A stretch of DNA of 35,796 nt from a virus: positions 1 to 35,796 of IMG/VR virus record IMGVR_UViG_3300010157_000018. One strand, given 5' to 3'. Under the pieces are notes generated by a model, which was not told the DNA's origin, did no database searches, and worked only from the letters and a program-made list of their open reading frames with translations. The position numbers and the translations under genes were made by a program. Shown piece by piece: positions 3,808 to 27,031 of this stretch. The stretch's first letter is position 1. Every line of letters starts with the position of its first letter.

Positions 3808-4131
3808 ATGCCAAAGTATTTTGCGCCTAGTGGTTTAGCAAATGTAGAGATCACAGGTACACGCACTGGTGTAACCACAACTTTGAAACGGGGTAAAGAT
3901 GGTTTCTTTAGCACTGATTCAAAGATGGATGGTAAAGCACTTAAAGATGCTGGACTGGTTGAAGCATCCCTTATGGGTGTACCAGTTGGTAATGTTGGTT
4001 TCATTTGTTCGGGCTGTGGTTTTAACGGATTCTTTGCGGTCTGTGGGAAATGTGGAACGAATAACAAAGCGCAAGAAGAAGATAAAGAAACTGTTGAATG
4101 TGACAACTGCGAATGTGGGGAAACTAAATAA
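3808..4131 (+). CDS. Zinc-ribbon structural-region protein (107 aa)
   Basis: Start chosen at ATG 3808 because GGAAGG lies 11 nt upstream; the longer open frame from 3745 would cross the hairpin. The N-terminal 60 residues are beta-like (VEITGTRTGVTTTLKRGKDG). Residues 67-82 hold two CxxC pairs (ICSGCGFNGFFAVCGKCG), a classic zinc ribbon, and a second cluster C98-x2-C101-x-C103 lies near the end. It stands between the capsid and head-connector genes and overlaps the next gene by one base (TAATG). Likely a small head or head-completion protein; no exact family is recognised. Confidence 0.7.
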   Translation: MPKYFAPSGLANVEITGTRTGVTTTLKRGKDGFFSTDSKMDGKALKDAGLVEASLMGVPVGNVGFICSGCGFNGFFAVCGKCGTNNKAQEEDKETVECDNCECGETK

Positions 4132-5024
4132 TGACTAACGCCTATGGTGCAACAACTAAACTGTTCAGCACCCCATACTTAACCATTGCTGAATACAAAG
4201 CCGCACCTACGGCTATTGACTACAACAACTTAGTTACTGATTCTTCAGATCCTGCAGCGCAAGATGCAGAATTGGCAAACAACATTGCGCGTGCTTCTAG
4301 TTGGGTAGACACTTACTGTAACCAGGTGTTAGCGGCTACTGTTGAAACAGAAAATCAAAGGGCAAGGTTCAGCCCTGATGGTTACATTAAAGTTCACCCA
4401 CGCTATAACCCCATTGTTGCGCTAACTGCGTTTTCTTACGGGTCACAGCCTAATAATCTTGTGGCGTATCCTGATGTGTCGCAGGGCTGGGTTGAAGATC
4501 AAAGCATAATCATGCCGTGGACTATTGGCACTACTTATTCTTCGGCTGGACCTTTGCAGTTTGGGTTACCTTCTAGCCCACGCGGTCAGGTGTTTTGCCA
4601 ATACACTTATGTGTCTGGGTTTGCGAACACTACCCTTAGTGCTGGTTCTAGTGCTGGTGCTTCATCTATTACTGTGGCTGATGGTACGGGCATTGTTGCT
4701 GGATCGCGTTTAACTATCTTTGATGGTTTGTTTACTGAAACTTTTACTGTCGCTTCTACCTACACCTTTGGTTCTTCTACAGTGCCTGTTGTTGGCACAC
4801 TGGTAAACGCACACACGGCAGGGGTGGCGGTTAGTGCTTTGCCACCAGCCGTTAAAGAAGCCGCCATACTAGCCACTACAGCGTTCTTAAAGGTGCGTGG
4901 TGATTACAGTATGACTATGCAGGTTACTTCTGCAGTGGGTCAGGCAACACCAAACATGGGTTCTTTGAATAGTGATCTTGATTTGGCTAAAGAATTACTT
5001 ATACCGTTCCGCAGGGTTCGCTAA
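4131..5024 (+). CDS. Head-tail connector / adaptor protein
   Basis: 297 aa, translationally coupled to the zinc-ribbon gene (TAATG). The N-terminal portion (YLTIAEYKAAPTAIDYNNL, then NNIARASSWVDTYCNQVLAA) has the helix pattern of gp6-like connector proteins: clustered helices annotated as DNA-packaging head-tail connectors. Residues about 175-240 (SSITVADGTGIVAGSRLTIF) look like an inserted beta domain, and the C-terminus returns to helix (AVKEAAILATTAFLKVRGD, SDLDLAKELLIPFRRV). Its place right after the capsid gene supports a role in closing the head and receiving the tail. Confidence 0.7.
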   Translation: MTNAYGATTKLFSTPYLTIAEYKAAPTAIDYNNLVTDSSDPAAQDAELANNIARASSWVDTYCNQVLAATVETENQRARFSPDGYIKVHPRYNPIVALTAFSYGSQPNNLVAYPDVSQGWVEDQSIIMPWTIGTTYSSAGPLQFGLPSSPRGQVFCQYTYVSGFANTTLSAGSSAGASSITVADGTGIVAGSRLTIFDGLFTETFTVASTYTFGSSTVPVVGTLVNAHTAGVAVSALPPAVKEAAILATTAFLKVRGDYSMTMQVTSAVGQATPNMGSLNSDLDLAKELLIPFRRVR

Positions 5025-9953: not shown

Positions 9954-12900
9954 GGACATACCTTATGTTGGTATTACTTTGTCACCACAGGTGCAACCTA
10001 ATAGTGCGTGGTACAAATTAGCCAACTCTAAATCTAATGCCACTACCCCGTCTGCACCCACACCTTCTAGTTTGTTTAGCAACATCACTAACCGTACTTA
10101 TTCGTTTCATACCAGGCGTGGGCGTACTTACGAATTGGGGCGTATTGAATCGGGTGAATGTAGGGTACAGGTAAATAATTCAGATAGTTTATTTGATCCT
10201 AATAATACTTCTGGTTTGTTTTATCCTAACTTGTTGCCGTTCAAACCTTTGCAAGTTAATTGTGCGTATCCGATTACGGGCAACATTTTGAATAACACTA
10301 ATTTGTCACCTGTTGGTTCTGTTAATGCGCGTATCAGTGTTGGTGCTAGTGATGCCGATTTTGAATTAGGTATTGTTAATTGGTATGCGCTTAGTGGTTC
10401 GCTTGGCGTGATTGGGGCAAGTGTTTCAGGTGATCAAAGCATGGTGGTTAATGCTAGTAGTGTTGCCGCACTTGATGTACCTGTTGTTGCTGGTAAACAA
10501 ATCACGGTGAGTATGTATCAGCAATACGAATACATTGGTGGTAATGGTGGTAATTTCCAAGTCTATGACGGCGGTTATTATGCTGGAGCGACTGCAACAA
10601 CAACAACAAACTTTATTGATGGTTCGCAAACTTGGATTAGGTTCACCGCTACACTCACACCTAGTTCACCTAAAATAACTATTTTAATAAATCAAAATAA
10701 TGTGTCTTCTAATTCTTATGTAGATGCGGTGCAGGTTGAGTTTGGATCTAGTGCCAGTGCGTTTAGTACCACGGGTAGTACCATCTACAATTTGTTTAAC
10801 GGGTTTGTTGAACGCTACCCACAAAGTTATCAAGCACCTAACCGTGGTGAAGCAAACATTGTTGCCACTGATGCTATTGCTTCCATGTCGCAAATACAGA
10901 TGGCTAACTTGTATCAGTCTTACTTGTTGCAAGATCCTAGTGAAGCGTTGTATTACTATCCTTTGAATGAACCTGCAGGTTCTACCAGCGCATCTAACGC
11001 TAGTTTGTATAACCAACTGCCATTGAATTTACAAACTTTTGTGCAGCCTACTAATGTTGTTTTTGCTGATGAATTGGCTGTTGCTGGTGTGCCTGGCGCG
11101 GCAACTACTGGCGCAACTTTTTTTAACATTAACGCCCCTAGCGATTTCCCAGCCATAGGCACATACCTATCTAACAAATCTGTGCAAGATGTTTCATTTG
11201 CTTCTAGTCAAACCTACACATTCAACATGTGGCTTAAAGCCAGTGGCACTAATAATCAAATCTATTTTATGTGTAACTACAGTGGTGCGGCTAACACCGC
11301 TAATGAAGATTTTAGTTTTGGTATTGGTACTAATAGTGCTGGTAAGTTGTGTGTGCGTGTGCTTGCCTATGATGTTGTTTATGGTGATCAGTATTTAGCG
11401 GTGCAACCTACTGCGCTGGATACAACTAACTGGCATTTGGTTAGTATGAAAGTTACTTATGCTGGTGGTAACACTTACAACTTTACTTTAACTGTTGATG
11501 GTGTTGTTACTACTGGCACTATCACTAATGCTATTGCGAAGGCTGTAGTAAAGAATTTTATTGTTGGTGGTGCTTATGCAACTGTTGGGGCTAACACTGT
11601 CGGCACAAGTGTGGCGCATGTTTCTATTCATAGGGGCGCAGTAACTTATCAGGATTACCATGCCACTGGTGCTTACGCCCAATACACAGACAGTAGTGTG
11701 GCTGAACAAACAGGTACAAGGTTTGCTAACACAATGGCTAACTACAGTGGTTTCAAATACTTACCAACATTTAATGATCTTGGCGTTTCACAAATGCAAG
11801 CATTCACACCAACTGGCACAACGGTTACTGACTACATACAAACCATTGCTGATACTGAAGGTGGTGAATGGTATGTAGATGGTGACGGTTATGTGACTTT
11901 CAAAGACCGTGATGCGCGGTTAAAGAAACTTGTACCTAAAGTTACCTTTGGTGATGGTGCTGGTGAAACCGCGTATCAGGGTGGGGATGTTGTCATTAAC
12001 TATGATCCCACATACATTTTTAATGACATTGTGGTGAACCGTAATGGTGGGGTAACTGTACCTGCGCAAGACCAAACCAGTGTTGCTAACTATTTCCCAC
12101 GATCTTACACGCGCACTATTTACAATGGTGCGGATGCTGAAGCGGTAGATGCCGCATACTTTTTGTTGTCGCGGTATAAAGATCCTGTGGCACGCGTTGA
12201 AACAATAGTTTTGACACCTGCGCGTAACCCTTCTATTTGGGCTGTGGCGTTAGGTTTAGAAATTGGTGACTTGGTTAGGTTTAAGAAACGCCCGTTAGGT
12301 GGCGTGCCTATTAGCCTGGACTGTTTCATTGAACGGGTTGAACATTCTTTTGATGCGCAAACTGCAGACTGGATTACCACAGTTACCTTGTCACCTGTGT
12401 TTAGGTATTACTGGAATTTGTCGGGGCTTAAAGTGGTTTCTAGTAGCGGCAGTGGTACTAATAGTTTGGAAGTAGTTAAGGGTACTGCGCTTGCTAATTC
12501 GCGTGACATTGTTGCAGGGCAATTGATGCAAGGGCTTGATAACAACATGCCAGAAAACTGTATTGCTGTTGTATCGGGTACACCTACTGAAACTTCAACT
12601 AGGGTAACTATCCCATTAAGTCTTATTGGTTATCTTTACACCAGTGGCACAACAGTAAAATCTTCTACATTGTCTGCCAGCATTTTGATGGACACCACCA
12701 CCACTTGTGCTTTGGCTAACGCTAATCTTGCAGGCACTTCAGGTAACTATGTTATTGATGGTGAAATTGTTACTGGTTCTGTTAGTGGATCTACTTTAAC
12801 TATCACTGCGCGTGCGCAAAATGGAACAAAACAAACCACTGCGGGTACTGATAGCACTGGTGCTGGTTCGTATTCTCATTACACAGGCGCAACCATTTAC

Positions 12901-16652: not shown

Positions 16653-16841
16653 TTAATTGTTTGGCAGTGACTTCTTAATTGATTCTAATAAATACTCTAA
16701 AGCCACAACACTTTGTTCTGTGTTTTTTGCTTGCATCACTTTGCGTATTGAACCATGCATTAAAGCATTGCCAGTTAAATCTAAATCTTCAATAAACTTA
16801 TTTACTAAACCGTTGATTGCTACCTGCTGTTTTGCGTTCAT
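16653..16841 (-). CDS. Small helical protein (62 aa), unknown
   Basis: Start set at 16841 because a ribosome site (GAAAGGCAAG) and a full copy of the four-fold promoter/leader element lie immediately upstream; the longer frame to 17006 would translate through that element. The protein is predicted helical (NGLVNKFIEDLDLTGNALMHG, VVALEYLLESIKKSLPNN) with no Cys and no membrane segment. It is the only gene of its transcription unit, ending at the convergent terminator. Function not recognised. Confidence 0.65.
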   Translation of the reverse strand: MNAKQQVAINGLVNKFIEDLDLTGNALMHGSIRKVMQAKNTEQSVVALEYLLESIKKSLPNN

Positions 16842-16960
16842 TGTCTTGCCTTTCTGTTCTGCGCCCTGTGCGCTGTTAGTACCAGCATAAAACCTAAACA
16901 AACAAACATGCAACTTATTTACAAAAGTTTTTTTATTCCCTTTATTTCTAAGGGTTTTCT
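16842..16960 (-). promoter_or_regulatory. Repeated promoter/leader element, copy A
   Basis: Read on the minus strand: CCCTT/AAGGG dyad (plus-strand 16938-16954), A-tract, TTGCAT -35 (16908-16913), 18-nt spacer beginning GTTTGTTTGTTT, TATGCT -10 (16884-16889), 13-nt hairpin GCGCACAGGGCGC (16861-16873) and ribosome site. The dyad overlaps the stop codon of the upstream gene. Matches copies B, C and D. Confidence 0.85.
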
Positions 16961-17675: not shown

Positions 17676-17860
17676 AGTTGTTTCGCTTTCATAAACATAA
17701 ATGTTTCAGGATGTTCTAACGCCATCTGGTTATAAATTGGTGTATCCATTTCATCTGTTGGTTTGAATTGGTCTGCTTCGTTGTAACCAGCATAGTGACC
17801 TAAGCGGTATGAGATTAAAGTGATGGGTAGTAGGGACACTATTAAAAATACATTAAGCAT
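17672..17860 (-). CDS. Single-pass membrane protein (62 aa)
   Basis: The ATG at 17860 overlaps the end of the WhiB gene by 8 nt; the frame is open upstream only as a shadow of WhiB. Residues 2-20 (LNVFLIVSLLPITLISYRL) form a membrane helix or signal anchor, followed by a 40-residue polar tail containing YNEADQFKPTDEMDTP. No cleavage site is evident. Such small membrane proteins in early blocks can act in superinfection exclusion, but there is no direct evidence here. Confidence 0.6.
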   Translation of the reverse strand: MLNVFLIVSLLPITLISYRLGHYAGYNEADQFKPTDEMDTPIYNQMALEHPETFMFMKAKQL

Positions 17861-18209
17861 TTTGGCGATTCCGTTTCTGTGTTTCTGCAGACTTCGCTGC
17901 ACGCACTTTTCTTTTATGTTTAGCGTCATCTGTTTGTGACATAAACACTTCATGTATTGGGTAGATGGGTGTGGCGGTGATGCCCCGTTTGGCGCGGATC
18001 ACTCTGCGTTCTGCGGCTGTTGTGCCAGCCCAAATGCCATCCACTTTTACATGAAGTGAATAGTCCAGGCATGATGTAAAAATGGGGCAGGCTGAACAAA
18101 CTTTGTAAAGCATTTGTTGTTGTTTTTCTTCTTGTTCGCGTGAGTCTGGAAAAAATAAATCAACAGGCAATTCTCTGCATGATGCTTCTGTGAAGTCTGG
18201 GCATTTCAT
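17853..18209 (-). CDS. WhiB-family Fe-S transcriptional regulator, WhiB-1
   Basis: 118 aa. Four cluster-ligand cysteines are visible: C11 (EASCREL), then C38-x2-C41-x5-C47 (VCSACPIFTSC). The family turn GIWAGTTAAERR follows at residues 58-69, and a basic C-terminus (KHKRKVRAAKSAETQKRNR) would contact DNA. WhiB proteins bind the primary sigma factor region 4 and are restricted to Actinobacteria and their phages, which is strong host evidence. ATGA overlap couples it to the gene before. It may redirect host RNA polymerase to or from the phage promoters found here. Confidence 0.9.
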   Translation of the reverse strand: MKCPDFTEASCRELPVDLFFPDSREQEEKQQQMLYKVCSACPIFTSCLDYSLHVKVDGIWAGTTAAERRVIRAKRGITATPIYPIHEVFMSQTDDAKHKRKVRAAKSAETQKRNRQNA

Positions 18210-18537: not shown

Positions 18538-18663
18538 AAAACCCTTGTGAATAAAGGGGGACACGCGGTATTGAAATTTAATCATTAAATAACTTGCATG
18601 TTTGTTTGTTTCGTGTAGTCTTGTCTTAACAGCCCAGGGTGGGCAGATTAGAAGGGCAAGAAA
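18538..18663 (+). promoter_or_regulatory. Repeated promoter/leader element, copy B
   Basis: CCCTT/AAGGG dyad (18542-18558), TTGCAT -35 (18594-18599), spacer beginning GTTTGTTTGTTT, degenerate -10 TAGTCT at 18616-18621 (16-nt spacer), perfect hairpin GCCCA-GGG-TGGGC (18632-18644), ribosome site AGAAGGGCAAG. It drives the LPD29-like gene and the recombination block. Relative to copy C, the third stem pair is C-G instead of G-C, which keeps pairing. Confidence 0.85.
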
Positions 18664-18972
18664 ATGACAACAACACTAGACATTTCAGCAACAGACACCG
18701 CCAAGATGGTGCGCAAAGCAATCAAGAACGCTTACCCAATGGCAAAGATTTCTGTAGTTACAGATAAGTATTCAATGGGTGCGGCAATTAATGTCACCAT
18801 TCTTACTGAAATGACAAACGAACAGGTTGCAGATGTAACCGACATTGCACGCCAGTTTGAAGGCGCAACATTTGATGGCACGATTGATCTTAAAGAATAC
18901 AAAGTGTCTGTGCTTGATGGTCAAGATGTTCGTTTTGGTGCTGATTTTATTTTCACACACAAGGGGTGGTAA
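18664..18972 (+). CDS. LPD29-domain protein
   Basis: 102 aa behind promoter copy B. The pattern MVRKAIKNAYPMAKISVVTDKYSMGAAINV followed by MTNEQVADVTDIARQFEGATFDGTIDLKEY matches the LPD29 domain, known from large polyvalent proteins of mobile elements and as small stand-alone phage proteins. The role is not established; the domain is often linked with DNA-handling proteins. As the first gene after the promoter it should be highly expressed early. A 13-codon frame at 18976-19017 follows but is too short to call. Confidence 0.7.
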   Translation: MTTTLDISATDTAKMVRKAIKNAYPMAKISVVTDKYSMGAAINVTILTEMTNEQVADVTDIARQFEGATFDGTIDLKEYKVSVLDGQDVRFGADFIFTHKGW

Positions 18973-21519: not shown

Positions 21520-21816
21520 GTGACTGGACACCTGCCAAAGATTGCTTCACCTAAATTGCCTAATGCTTTGTGTGCAGATAAACGCATTAACCCTGAATTG
21601 TTTTTTGCGGATGATTGCCAGCAACCAGATAAAACTGTGGTTGAACAGGCTAGGGCGATTTGTATTCAATGCCCAGACCGTGTGCCATGTTTGTTGTGGG
21701 GTTTGCAGAATGAAAACTTTGGCATGTGGGGTGGACTAACTGCGAATGAACGCAGAGATTTTAAGAAACGAAAACTAAACAAACTAAAACATTTGAAATT
21801 GTTGAATCTAATTTAG
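21520..21816 (+). CDS. WhiB-family Fe-S transcriptional regulator, WhiB-2
   Basis: 98 aa, GTG start. Cysteines C18, C48-x2-C51-x5-C57 (ICIQCPDRVPC) and the turn FGMWGGLTANERR match the WhiB pattern more closely than WhiB-1, and the basic tail (FKKRKLNKLKHLKLL) would bind DNA. CACAAT lies 6 nt before the start (21508-21513) and may serve as a -10 for leaderless expression. Encoded on the opposite strand from WhiB-1, so the two may be expressed at different stages. Confidence 0.9.
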   Translation: MTGHLPKIASPKLPNALCADKRINPELFFADDCQQPDKTVVEQARAICIQCPDRVPCLLWGLQNENFGMWGGLTANERRDFKKRKLNKLKHLKLLNLI

Positions 21817-22254: not shown

Positions 22255-22475
22255 CGACACATAACTTAATAACCAGTTTTTTGTTTGGTCTGGTAAAACT
22301 AAACCCGTGAGATGTATAAGCCCTAGTGAGATCGGCACAGCAGGCAACCAGTTAAATGGTTTACCACCTAGCGTAAGTTTGCTAGGTGTGGGGTATGGAA
22401 CGCCCATAGCATCACAAGAGTAGTGGGCAGTCTGATTAGTATGGCTGTTAAATTCTGGCGAACCTTTGGGGGACT
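22255..22475 (+). ncRNA. Hairpin-rich non-coding region, possible structured RNA
   Basis: 221 nt with no convincing gene in an otherwise packed genome. Visible pairings include CACCTAGC/GCTAGGTG (22365-22372 with 22381-22388, 8-nt loop), TATGG/CCATA (22394-22398 with 22404-22408), ACCAG/CTGGT early in the region, and an alternative GCCCA/TGGGC long-range pair. GTGAGAT occurs twice (22307, 22326). I do not recognise a known riboswitch or tRNA. It may be a structured leader or small RNA of the following zinc-finger gene, or an origin region. A 22-codon frame from 22441 overlaps the next start and is not called. Confidence 0.4.
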
Positions 22476-22748
22476 ATGGGCAACCATAAGATTAAGAAGT
22501 TGTTACTAGATGATCTTAAGAAGTCTGGTTATTGTCGTAGTGTGTGGTCTGGTAAGTGTGTGTTGTGTAGTTTTGAAATCAAACACCGTGACTTAATTGT
22601 TAAACCTGTTGGTGATGTTTTGCCGTCTAGGTGGTATCACGCTAAATGTCTTGAAGCCTGGTTGAAGGTTGAAGGTGATCGTAGGGCTGCGGCTGGGCGT
22701 GTCGCTGGTGGTAGGCGTAGAAGCCTTGCAAATAAAGGTAAAAAATAA
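22476..22748 (+). CDS. Zinc-finger protein (90 aa)
   Basis: GGGGGA lies directly before ATG 22476. The middle part GKCVLCSFEIKHRDLIVKP then RWYHAKCLEAWLKVEG gives C-x2-C ... H-x2-C, a zinc site of the LIM/PARP-like treble-clef shape. The C-terminus is strongly basic (RRAAAGRVAGGRRRSLANKGKK). This combination suggests DNA or RNA binding. Its last codons contain the dyad of promoter copy C, so gene and promoter overlap. Confidence 0.65.
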   Translation: MGNHKIKKLLLDDLKKSGYCRSVWSGKCVLCSFEIKHRDLIVKPVGDVLPSRWYHAKCLEAWLKVEGDRRAAAGRVAGGRRRSLANKGKK

Positions 22749-22842
22749 TTAAAAAAACTTTGCCAAAACAGTTGCATGTTTGTTTGTTTTGGGTTTATGA
22801 TTGAACTACAGCGCAGGGTGCGCCAAACAGAAGGGTAAGAAA
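22721..22842 (+). promoter_or_regulatory. Repeated promoter/leader element, copy C
   Basis: CCTT/AAGG dyad (22724-22738, within the end of the upstream gene), A-tract with ACTTTG, TTGCAT -35 (22772-22777), 18-nt spacer GTTTGTTTGTTTTGGGTT, TATGAT -10 (22796-22801, one mismatch to TATAAT), perfect hairpin GCGCA-GGG-TGCGC (22811-22823), ribosome site AGAAGGGTAAG. Best-formed of the four copies. Confidence 0.88.
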
Positions 22843-23025
22843 ATGAATCACTTTAGTCAGATCACATTAACAAACGCAATTAACGCGTGGGCAGATGGCA
22901 AACTAGATGAAACAACATTTGCTGCGTTTTTTAATTTTGTGTGGAACAAATGGAATCTTGCAATCAACAAATCAGAATTAGATTTAACAACAGAGTTTCA
23001 AGCATTTAGCAAGGTTGGTGCATAA
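22843..23025 (+). CDS. Small early protein (60 aa), unknown
   Basis: Start at ATG 22843 is fixed by the AGAAGGGTAAG site of promoter copy C; the frame upstream to 22801 is leader. The protein is helical with Trp/Phe-rich middle (TTFAAFFNFVWNKWNLAINK), acidic overall. It begins a run of six tiny genes translated by stop-start overlaps. No family recognised. Confidence 0.65.
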   Translation: MNHFSQITLTNAINAWADGKLDETTFAAFFNFVWNKWNLAINKSELDLTTEFQAFSKVGA

Positions 23026-23216
23026 TGTTTAGCGCAGAACTAATTGAAAACAAACTATCTAAACTTCTAAAGACCTGGAACAAAGTAGATCAAGCATGGT
23101 GGGTTAATGCTGTGCAACATTCTTTAACACATGTAAACACATTCACCCTAATGGGCAGAATCACCACCAGTGGCAAAGATGAAGTTATTTACGCACATGA
23201 AGTAGTAGGTGCATAA
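23025..23216 (+). CDS. Small early protein (63 aa), unknown
   Basis: Coupled by TAATG. An N-terminal helix (SAELIENKLSKLLKTWNKVDQAWWVNAV) is followed by strands (FTLMGRITTSGKDEVIYAHEVV). The Trp pair and short alpha/beta form are typical of small phage proteins that bind a host target, but this is only an impression. Confidence 0.6.
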   Translation: MFSAELIENKLSKLLKTWNKVDQAWWVNAVQHSLTHVNTFTLMGRITTSGKDEVIYAHEVVGA

Positions 23217-23428
23217 TGCAATCAACATCTTGGCAAAAAACCAGAATTCGTGCTGGCTACTACGATTTCAAAAATTTTTCTTTAATCAAGGATGAAACAA
23301 ATGGGTGGTGGAATGTTTACGAATGGAACGCAGACCACACTGAAAGTACCTTTGTTTGTTCTGGACACAAGTTGTGGTACGCAGAAGTGCAATTAAGGCA
23401 GATTATTAAATTAAGGGAAGGTGTGTAA
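23216..23428 (+). CDS. Small early protein (70 aa), unknown
   Basis: Coupled by TAATG. Aromatic- and charge-rich with likely beta structure (RIRAGYYDFKNFSLIKDE, WWNVYEWNADHTESTFVCSGHKLW) and a final helix (AEVQLRQIIKLREG). It does not resemble a family I know. Together with its two neighbours it probably forms the early or host-takeover set under promoter C. Confidence 0.6.
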   Translation: MQSTSWQKTRIRAGYYDFKNFSLIKDETNGWWNVYEWNADHTESTFVCSGHKLWYAEVQLRQIIKLREGV

Positions 23429-23523
23429 TGAGTTGCCCACATGAATGGATGATTGACGAACTAGAAACCTACTGCGCCCACTGTGGCACAGTTGAATTAA
23501 AGATAGGTGAAGAAGATGAATGA
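23428..23523 (+). CDS. Mini zinc-binding protein (31 aa)
   Basis: ATG 23428 overlaps the previous stop (TAATG). The product has C3-x-H5 and C16-x2-C19 (MSCPHEWMIDELETYCAHCG), a minimal zinc-knuckle arrangement, and an acidic end. It overlaps the next start by 8 nt. Too short for standard gene finders. Confidence 0.5.
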   Translation: MSCPHEWMIDELETYCAHCGTVELKIGEEDE

Positions 23524-23686
23524 CACAACAAAGACTGTGGCATACCTGCTTGATGGCAATAGGTGCGTGTGCGCTAAATGTTTCCCAGGGGTAACTGCTA
23601 AATGGTGGTGGTCTTTACTGGACACACCACGATCAGAAATTTATTTGATTGATCTTACTTGTGATGAATGTGGGGTGACTATCTGA
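23516..23686 (+). CDS. Zinc-ribbon protein (56 aa)
   Basis: ATG 23516 is preceded by GGTGAAGAAG. Two clusters, C17-x-C19-x2-C22 (RCVCAKCFPG) and C49-x2-C52 (LTCDECG), flank a WWW-containing middle, the layout of a zinc ribbon. The stop overlaps the next start as TGATG. Function unknown; small ribbons like this often bind RNA polymerase or DNA. Confidence 0.55.
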   Translation: MNDTTKTVAYLLDGNRCVCAKCFPGVTAKWWWSLLDTPRSEIYLIDLTCDECGVTI

Positions 23687-23802
23687 TGTGGGCTAAATGG
23701 GAACAACTACCGTGGACTTCGCGCGGTGAAAAGTTTAAGACCGTTGTAGAGTTTTTGGTAATACTTGCGTTTGTGCTGGTCGGTTCTATTGAAATAAAAT
23801 AG
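23686..23802 (+). CDS. Small membrane protein (38 aa)
   Basis: Coupled to the ribbon gene by TGATG. The N-terminal half is polar and Trp-rich (MWAKWEQLPWTSRGEKFK) and the rest is one membrane helix (VVEFLVILAFVLVGSI). Last gene of the unit before a terminator. Possible membrane-acting early peptide; no homologue recognised. Confidence 0.5.
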   Translation: MWAKWEQLPWTSRGEKFKTVVEFLVILAFVLVGSIEIK

Positions 23803-23849
23803 AAGTGCCGTAGGGGAAGTGCGGCAAGGGTAAGTAAAACTGAATAGAT

Positions 23850-23889
23850 TAAAGGCTAGGGCTTGGGGTCTTAGCCTTTAGTCATTTTT
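23850..23889 (+). terminator. Intrinsic terminator of the promoter C unit
   Basis: A 9-bp stem (TAAAGGCTA 23850-23858 with TAGCCTTTA 23872-23880), 13-nt GC-rich loop and ATTTTT at 23884-23889. It closes the run of small genes. A weaker stem, TGCCG/CGGCA, precedes it. Confidence 0.75.
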
Positions 23890-26915: not shown

Positions 26916-27031
26916 AAAACCCTTGAAAATAAAGGGGAAAAAACTTTGCTGAAATAGTTGCGCGTTTGTTTGAATTGTGTTTATACTTGATACATAGCGC
27001 ACAGGGCGCAGACTAGAAGGGCAAGATCAAA
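26916..27031 (+). promoter_or_regulatory. Repeated promoter/leader element, copy D
   Basis: CCCTT/AAGGG dyad (26920-26936), A-tract with ACTTTG, TTGCGC -35 (26958-26963), 18-nt spacer GTTTGTTTGAATTGTGTT, TATACT -10 (26982-26987), hairpin GCGC-ACAGG-GCGC (26997-27009), ribosome site AGAAGGGCAAG. The -35 differs from the other copies at two of six positions (GC for AT). Confidence 0.85.

Follow-up and report, generated by a model that had tools for sequence, protein, structure and literature searches.

Six very small genes in a 35,796-base virus sequence, which was analysed whole and is referred to below as the window, probably form an operon of early type whose accessory genes are exchangeable and translationally coupled by a standard joint, in the manner of a plug-in array. 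The joint, which we call the seam, reads approximately (A)AAGGYNGGTGCRTAATG and consists of the last codons of the upstream gene (often encoding K-V/A-G-A and then the stop), a Shine–Dalgarno-like site and the next start codon. Our working hypothesis is that a repeated leader, made up of a promoter and a 5' hairpin, would drive a single mRNA ending at a strong terminator, that at the c1/c2 and c2/c3 junctions, and at the degenerate c3/c4 one, the last codons of the upstream gene would serve as ribosome-binding site with its stop overlapping the next ATG, and that ribosomes ending one gene would thereby be positioned to start the next. Because each such unit ends with the start signal of the next unit, whole genes could be gained, lost or exchanged without broken expression. 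Phage genomes are rich in uncharacterized tiny genes, and how these are swapped without loss of expression is an old question; a searchable seam would predict the sites of accessory cassettes in uncultured phages, real ORFs of 30–70 aa and points of exchange, and could serve to list candidate anti-defence genes, as regulatory sequences do in archaeal viruses.

The six genes and their expression signals

A sequence-only reading had described six overlapping genes of 31–70 residues, and all six ORFs were recovered, head to tail, at the coordinates that it gave (Table 1). Adjacent genes overlap by 1 nt at c1/c2, c2/c3, c3/c4 and c5/c6 and by 8 nt at c4/c5. All six ORFs are real genes, since the codon score is positive in frame for each of c1–c6 and negative in all other frames, and since dN/dS against the sister contig L002 lies at about 0.09–0.23 for c2, c4, c5 and c6, a sign of purifying selection (for c2, dS 0.33, dN 0.028 and dN/dS about 0.09). 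In addition, a homologue of c3 in another phage is 61% identical. In line with the features previously remarked upon, c4 and c5 have cysteine pairs, c6 has one hydrophobic segment and c1–c3 abound in aromatic residues. Predicted structures were of low confidence (pLDDT 66 for c2 and 59 for c5), and these two models were unfit for a fold search because pLDDT was too weak.

Table 1. Coordinates of the small-gene cassette, its seams and its expression signals in the window
Feature	Position	Strand	Description
Related leader copy	16836–16935	-	
Related leader copy	18594–18667	+	
Promoter copy C	22772–22801	+	TTGCAT (22772–22777), 18-nt spacer, TATGAT (22796–22801)
Leader hairpin	22811–22823	+	GCGCA-GGG-TGCGC; computed fold, putatively near mRNA 5' end
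c1 ribosome-binding site	22829–22834	+	AGAAGG region, from sequence; AGAARGGYAAGA conserved in leader copies
c1	22843–23025	+	60 aa, looks helical; sister phages carry a replacement; homologue not found
Seam c1/c2	23010–23027	+	CAAGGTTGGTGCATAATG
c2	23025–23216	+	63 aa, containing the motif VDQAWWVNA; L002, L005 and the divergent L146 conserve it
Seam c2/c3	23201–23218	+	AGTAGTAGGTGCATAATG
c3	23216–23428	+	70 aa, Trp/Tyr-rich; 212-bp seam-to-seam insertion/deletion versus L002; homologue in L155 contig
Degenerate seam c3/c4	23411–23430	+	TTAAGGGAAGGTGTGTAATG
c4	23428–23523	+	31 aa, HEWxxDE...CxxC, perhaps a zinc knuckle; L002, L003, L005 and L066 have homologues
c5	23516–23686	+	56 aa, CxCxxC...CDxCG, perhaps a zinc protein; L002 and L005 have homologues, L014 a weak one
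c6	23686–23802	+	38 aa, WTxRG ahead of a single hydrophobic segment; 8 other contigs have similar proteins
Intrinsic terminator	23847–23883	+	17-bp stem then ATTTTT; z about -6
Related leader copy	26938–27026	+	

Promoter copy C, which the sequence-only reading took for the strongest copy, is one of four related leader copies in the window; it precedes c1 and is conserved ahead of the first gene of the slot in L002 and L005. A generic promoter scan did not flag copy C, and the case for it is its repetition together with its conservation in sister phages. The position of the -10 box places the leader hairpin, by prediction, a few bases at most from where the mRNA begins, and there it would protect the message. 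Among 11 close-family copies of this hairpin, all four tested pairs had changes on both sides that kept the pairing, 88.6% of cells were paired, and the covariation exceeded that of shuffled and slid controls. Elsewhere, too, many contigs with seam cassettes have a hairpin in the leader, though its sequence is unrelated; across this wider set, in which 3 of the 20 assumed starts lay off a start codon, the excess in hairpin strength over other gene starts was only modest (p 0.012). The terminator that had been proposed is a real and strong hairpin, lying just past the end given for the cassette. The cassette is probably expressed early.

In agreement with the sequence-only reading, c1–c6 gave no convincing family match in Pfam, PHROGs or PADLOC. 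The same holds for likeness to known inhibitor families, for which no convincing Pfam or PHROGs match was found, nor one in PADLOC, a defence library. Searches of named phages turned up neither DNA relatives of the region nor protein relatives for c2, c3, c5 or a c6 homologue from L146. Scans of prokaryote genomes with c2 and c3 gave no match, and neither did a viral scan with c3 alone, its homologue having surfaced through the seam search; the alignment of c6 was too variable for use as a scan query.

Sequence and frequency of the seam

Seams join c1 to c2 and c2 to c3, and in degenerate form c3 to c4; the c4/c5 and c5/c6 junctions do not use one. The core word GGTGCRTAATG, with an expectation of 0.07 per 35.8 kb, bounds c2 on either side and recurs at many sister-phage junctions. 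Claims of frequency are confined to loci fetched for reasons other than the seam, and several of the counts take in related contigs; cut-offs, the definition of the seam and the module pairs discussed below were chosen after inspection of the data. The seam word preceded TAATG at 15/63 junctions in the family set, one GATGCR form being counted, as against 5/347 elsewhere, and at loci not picked by the seam it was the commonest word before TAATG (18 of 337 deduplicated gene junctions). In six close-family sequences amounting to 100 kb it occurred 14 times, the next commonest word occurring four times. The bases upstream of the search word are conserved as well, being mostly AAAGGT or AAAGGC, often followed by A.

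The seam is conserved as DNA, since alternative codons for Gly and Ala hardly ever occur: at close-family junctions where the upstream protein ends in Gly-Ala, Gly is encoded by GGT in 18/19 cases and Ala by GCA or GCG in 19/19, and GGC, GCT and GCC are common elsewhere in the phage. Predicted pairing of the seam with the 16S tail is stronger than at other overlapping junctions (mean -8.9 versus -6.2 kcal/mol), a moderate rather than extreme value. The seam was also considered as a promoter -10 box, and this was rejected, as the R position alternates between A and G and a -10 box needs A. The seam also occurs outside the slot described here: in L003, small genes grouped on the minus strand (4129–4350) contain two seams, one of the GATGCR form.

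Turnover of the slot and exchange of modules

The cassette is flanked on its 5' side by genes for a single-strand annealing protein (phrog_3290), an exonuclease with Cas4-like relatives and a WhiB-like protein, and on its 3' side by genes for a RusA-like resolvase and SSB. The presence of WhiB is taken to indicate an actinophage (PMC10202952), so that this virus, an uncultured phage, probably infects actinobacteria. Two WhiB-like proteins with weak mutual similarity are encoded on opposite strands of the window, at 21520–21816 (+, with a Pfam match) and 17853–18209 (-). With regard to an integron-type array, the record, which may be a fragment, gave no match to tyrosine integrase (PF00589) in a search whose controls were positive.

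Sister contigs were gathered by searches with the exonuclease and the resolvase, and gene content was compared between their conserved recombination and replication genes. The slot proved hypervariable, and its proteins match neither replication nor virion proteins. In L002, L003, L005 and L007, c1 is replaced and c3 is absent; c2 and c5 were found in L002 and L005, c4 in L002, L003 and L005, and c6-like proteins in L002, L003, L005, L007, L014, L066 and L103. A divergent contig, L146, obtained from the scan with c2, has a c2 homologue followed directly by a c6 homologue. The most persistent member is c6, which, with c2 beside it once in a divergent phage, represents the more durable core. In the alignment of the window with L002, c3 is a one-gene insertion or deletion extending from GGTGCATAATG to GGTGTGTAATG and the replacement of c1 spans ATG to the next seam; judged from these alignments, exchange of c1 and of c3 takes in the entire gene.

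The seam extends beyond the close family. When viral contigs were searched for pairs of seams separated by one gene, the raw count was 15 stretches. On inspection, 11 contigs, which include three already-known sisters and L155 (the same contig as L066), had true tiny-gene junctions ending in -GA; left out were L151 (repeat DNA), L158 (no upstream ORF) and L160 (uncertain). The core of the seam is conserved in these contigs by construction, because they were found by it. The same seam links unrelated tiny genes in at least 10 other viral contigs, divergent phages included. The company that individual modules keep also differs: c3 follows c2 in the window and a homologue of the first gene of L003 in L155, and another module has three different upstream neighbours in L156, L159 and L162. 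In module pairs with both neighbours changed, the inner DNA is 64–92% identical and the 70-bp flanks are no more alike, or hardly more, than shuffled sequence; in the pair L156/L162, 99% alike, the change is confined to the upstream side. Between L003 and L155, similarity runs from ATG to TAATG and ends there. Gain, loss and exchange of whole genes at seams are shown as a pattern by the sequences compared, and the mechanism we infer.

What the seam and the small genes may do

The most far-reaching form of our proposal would make the seam a dedicated joint, at once gene end, ribosome-binding site, start and exchange point, which a wide group of mostly uncultured phages would share and by means of which tiny host-directed genes would move between divergent phages as interchangeable units, with help from phage annealing proteins; we advance this tentatively and regard it as possible but on the doubtful side. 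The phage itself codes for an annealing protein, exonuclease, SSB and resolvase, and the seam may be a driver of recombination. Rad52-like phage recombinases recombine short, diverged stretches, and the efficient length for Red-beta is 23–27 nt (PMC3945230); the seam, at about 18 nt, is shorter and therefore perhaps a poor recombination substrate alone, so that it may help but not suffice. Its falling below known efficient pairing lengths also suits an alternative to which we give not quite an even chance, namely that the seam is a translation signal only and not an exchange joint, with illegitimate recombination occurring anywhere and selection retaining those arrivals that have a working coupled start. 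The seam does hold AGG and GGTG, which are complementary to the 16S tail, and similar start-associated motifs in actinophages have been read as translation signals (PMC3203893, PMC7302621). However, GCR before TAATG is strongly kept though unpaired with 16S rRNA in the predicted duplexes, many different starts function at other junctions in the same phages, and the likeness of modules ends at the seam, all of which speaks against this alternative. A further reading makes the common C-terminal K-V/A-G-A a tag on the protein, serving degradation or targeting for instance, with DNA conservation secondary. This would account for an ending common to unrelated tiny proteins, but is very improbable given that synonymous codons for Gly and Ala see hardly any use, that the ending is tied to the TAATG start after it, and that c6, the last gene of the window's cassette, and its homologues are without it.

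As to the gene products, the role in host takeover or anti-defence that had been suggested earlier is plausible from position, promoter and turnover. Action on the host cell or its defences is the most likely function, if about an even call, because gene content turns over fast beside conserved recombination and replication genes. The products could instead be housekeeping regulators of the phage, such as transcription or replication helpers, as their location among recombination and replication genes, the zinc-binding look of c4 and c5 and the two WhiB-like proteins encoded nearby might suggest; high turnover and whole-gene swaps among close sisters speak against such a role, which we consider unlikely.

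Comparison with described systems

The T4-type mobile regulatory cassettes of Arbiol et al. (2010), units of promoter and stem-loop, are said to aid the shuffling of small early genes. In those cassettes, a promoter with stem-loop is repeated between genes, whereas here it is the seam that repeats and promoter and hairpin are found only at the head. The Start-Associated Sequences of Cluster K mycobacteriophages and Cluster EF Microbacterium phages (PMC3203893, PMC7302621) are, like the seam, short conserved motifs at the ribosome-binding position directly upstream of the start codons of unrelated gene families; both occur in actinophages and are conserved beyond 16S complementarity, and some Start-Associated Sequences have an upstream inverted repeat. 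With respect to the 17-bp imperfect inverted repeat of the extended form, a short covarying hairpin was found at the leader copies, which were the places examined. The Start-Associated Sequences differ from the seam in sequence (GGGATAGGAGCCC and GGGAAAGGACCCC), and the Cluster K 13-bp consensus GGGATAGGAGCCC had no match in the window with up to two mismatches allowed. The extended elements of Cluster EF lie in non-coding gaps, whereas the seam lies inside the end of the upstream gene and includes both its stop and the next start.

Boundary mosaicism at genes 67–68 of Island3 and Brujita (PMC3029335) likewise involves the gain or loss of a single small gene between repeats covering the end of the upstream gene, and in our module pairs, too, short repeats flank the exchanged gene and likeness stops at the repeats. 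That case is one event with a repeat of about 50 bp (18 shared C-terminal residues), whereas here a short seam recurs among many unrelated genes and contigs. Anti-defence genes of archaeal viruses (PMC11065993) resemble the cassette in being unassigned genes headed by a conserved regulatory sequence that is repeated and has a strong promoter, but belong to a different domain of life, and for the window's cassette such an activity is putative. In a limited search of open-licence literature, a seam inside the upstream gene common to unrelated tiny genes was not described for these four systems.

Other features of the region

The gene under leader copy B (18664–18972) matches Pfam LPD29, a large polyvalent protein associated domain (E 6.7e-12). 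Rfam searches of the whole window gave nothing at gathering level, and this includes a stretch of ~220 nt without obvious gene at 22255–22476, which is 96% identical in L002 and 86% in L005, better conserved than some adjoining genes, and has one hairpin with compensatory changes; its single-sequence fold is no better than shuffled. An HNH-like ORF lies directly 3' of its counterpart in L005. In L003, a 274-aa ORF (10186–11007) between the post-cassette gene and the resolvase is by eye of PP-loop/PAPS-reductase type, with no Pfam match, and in L103 a 194-aa ORF after the cassette (4182–4766) resembles, also by eye, a proteasome-type hydrolase.
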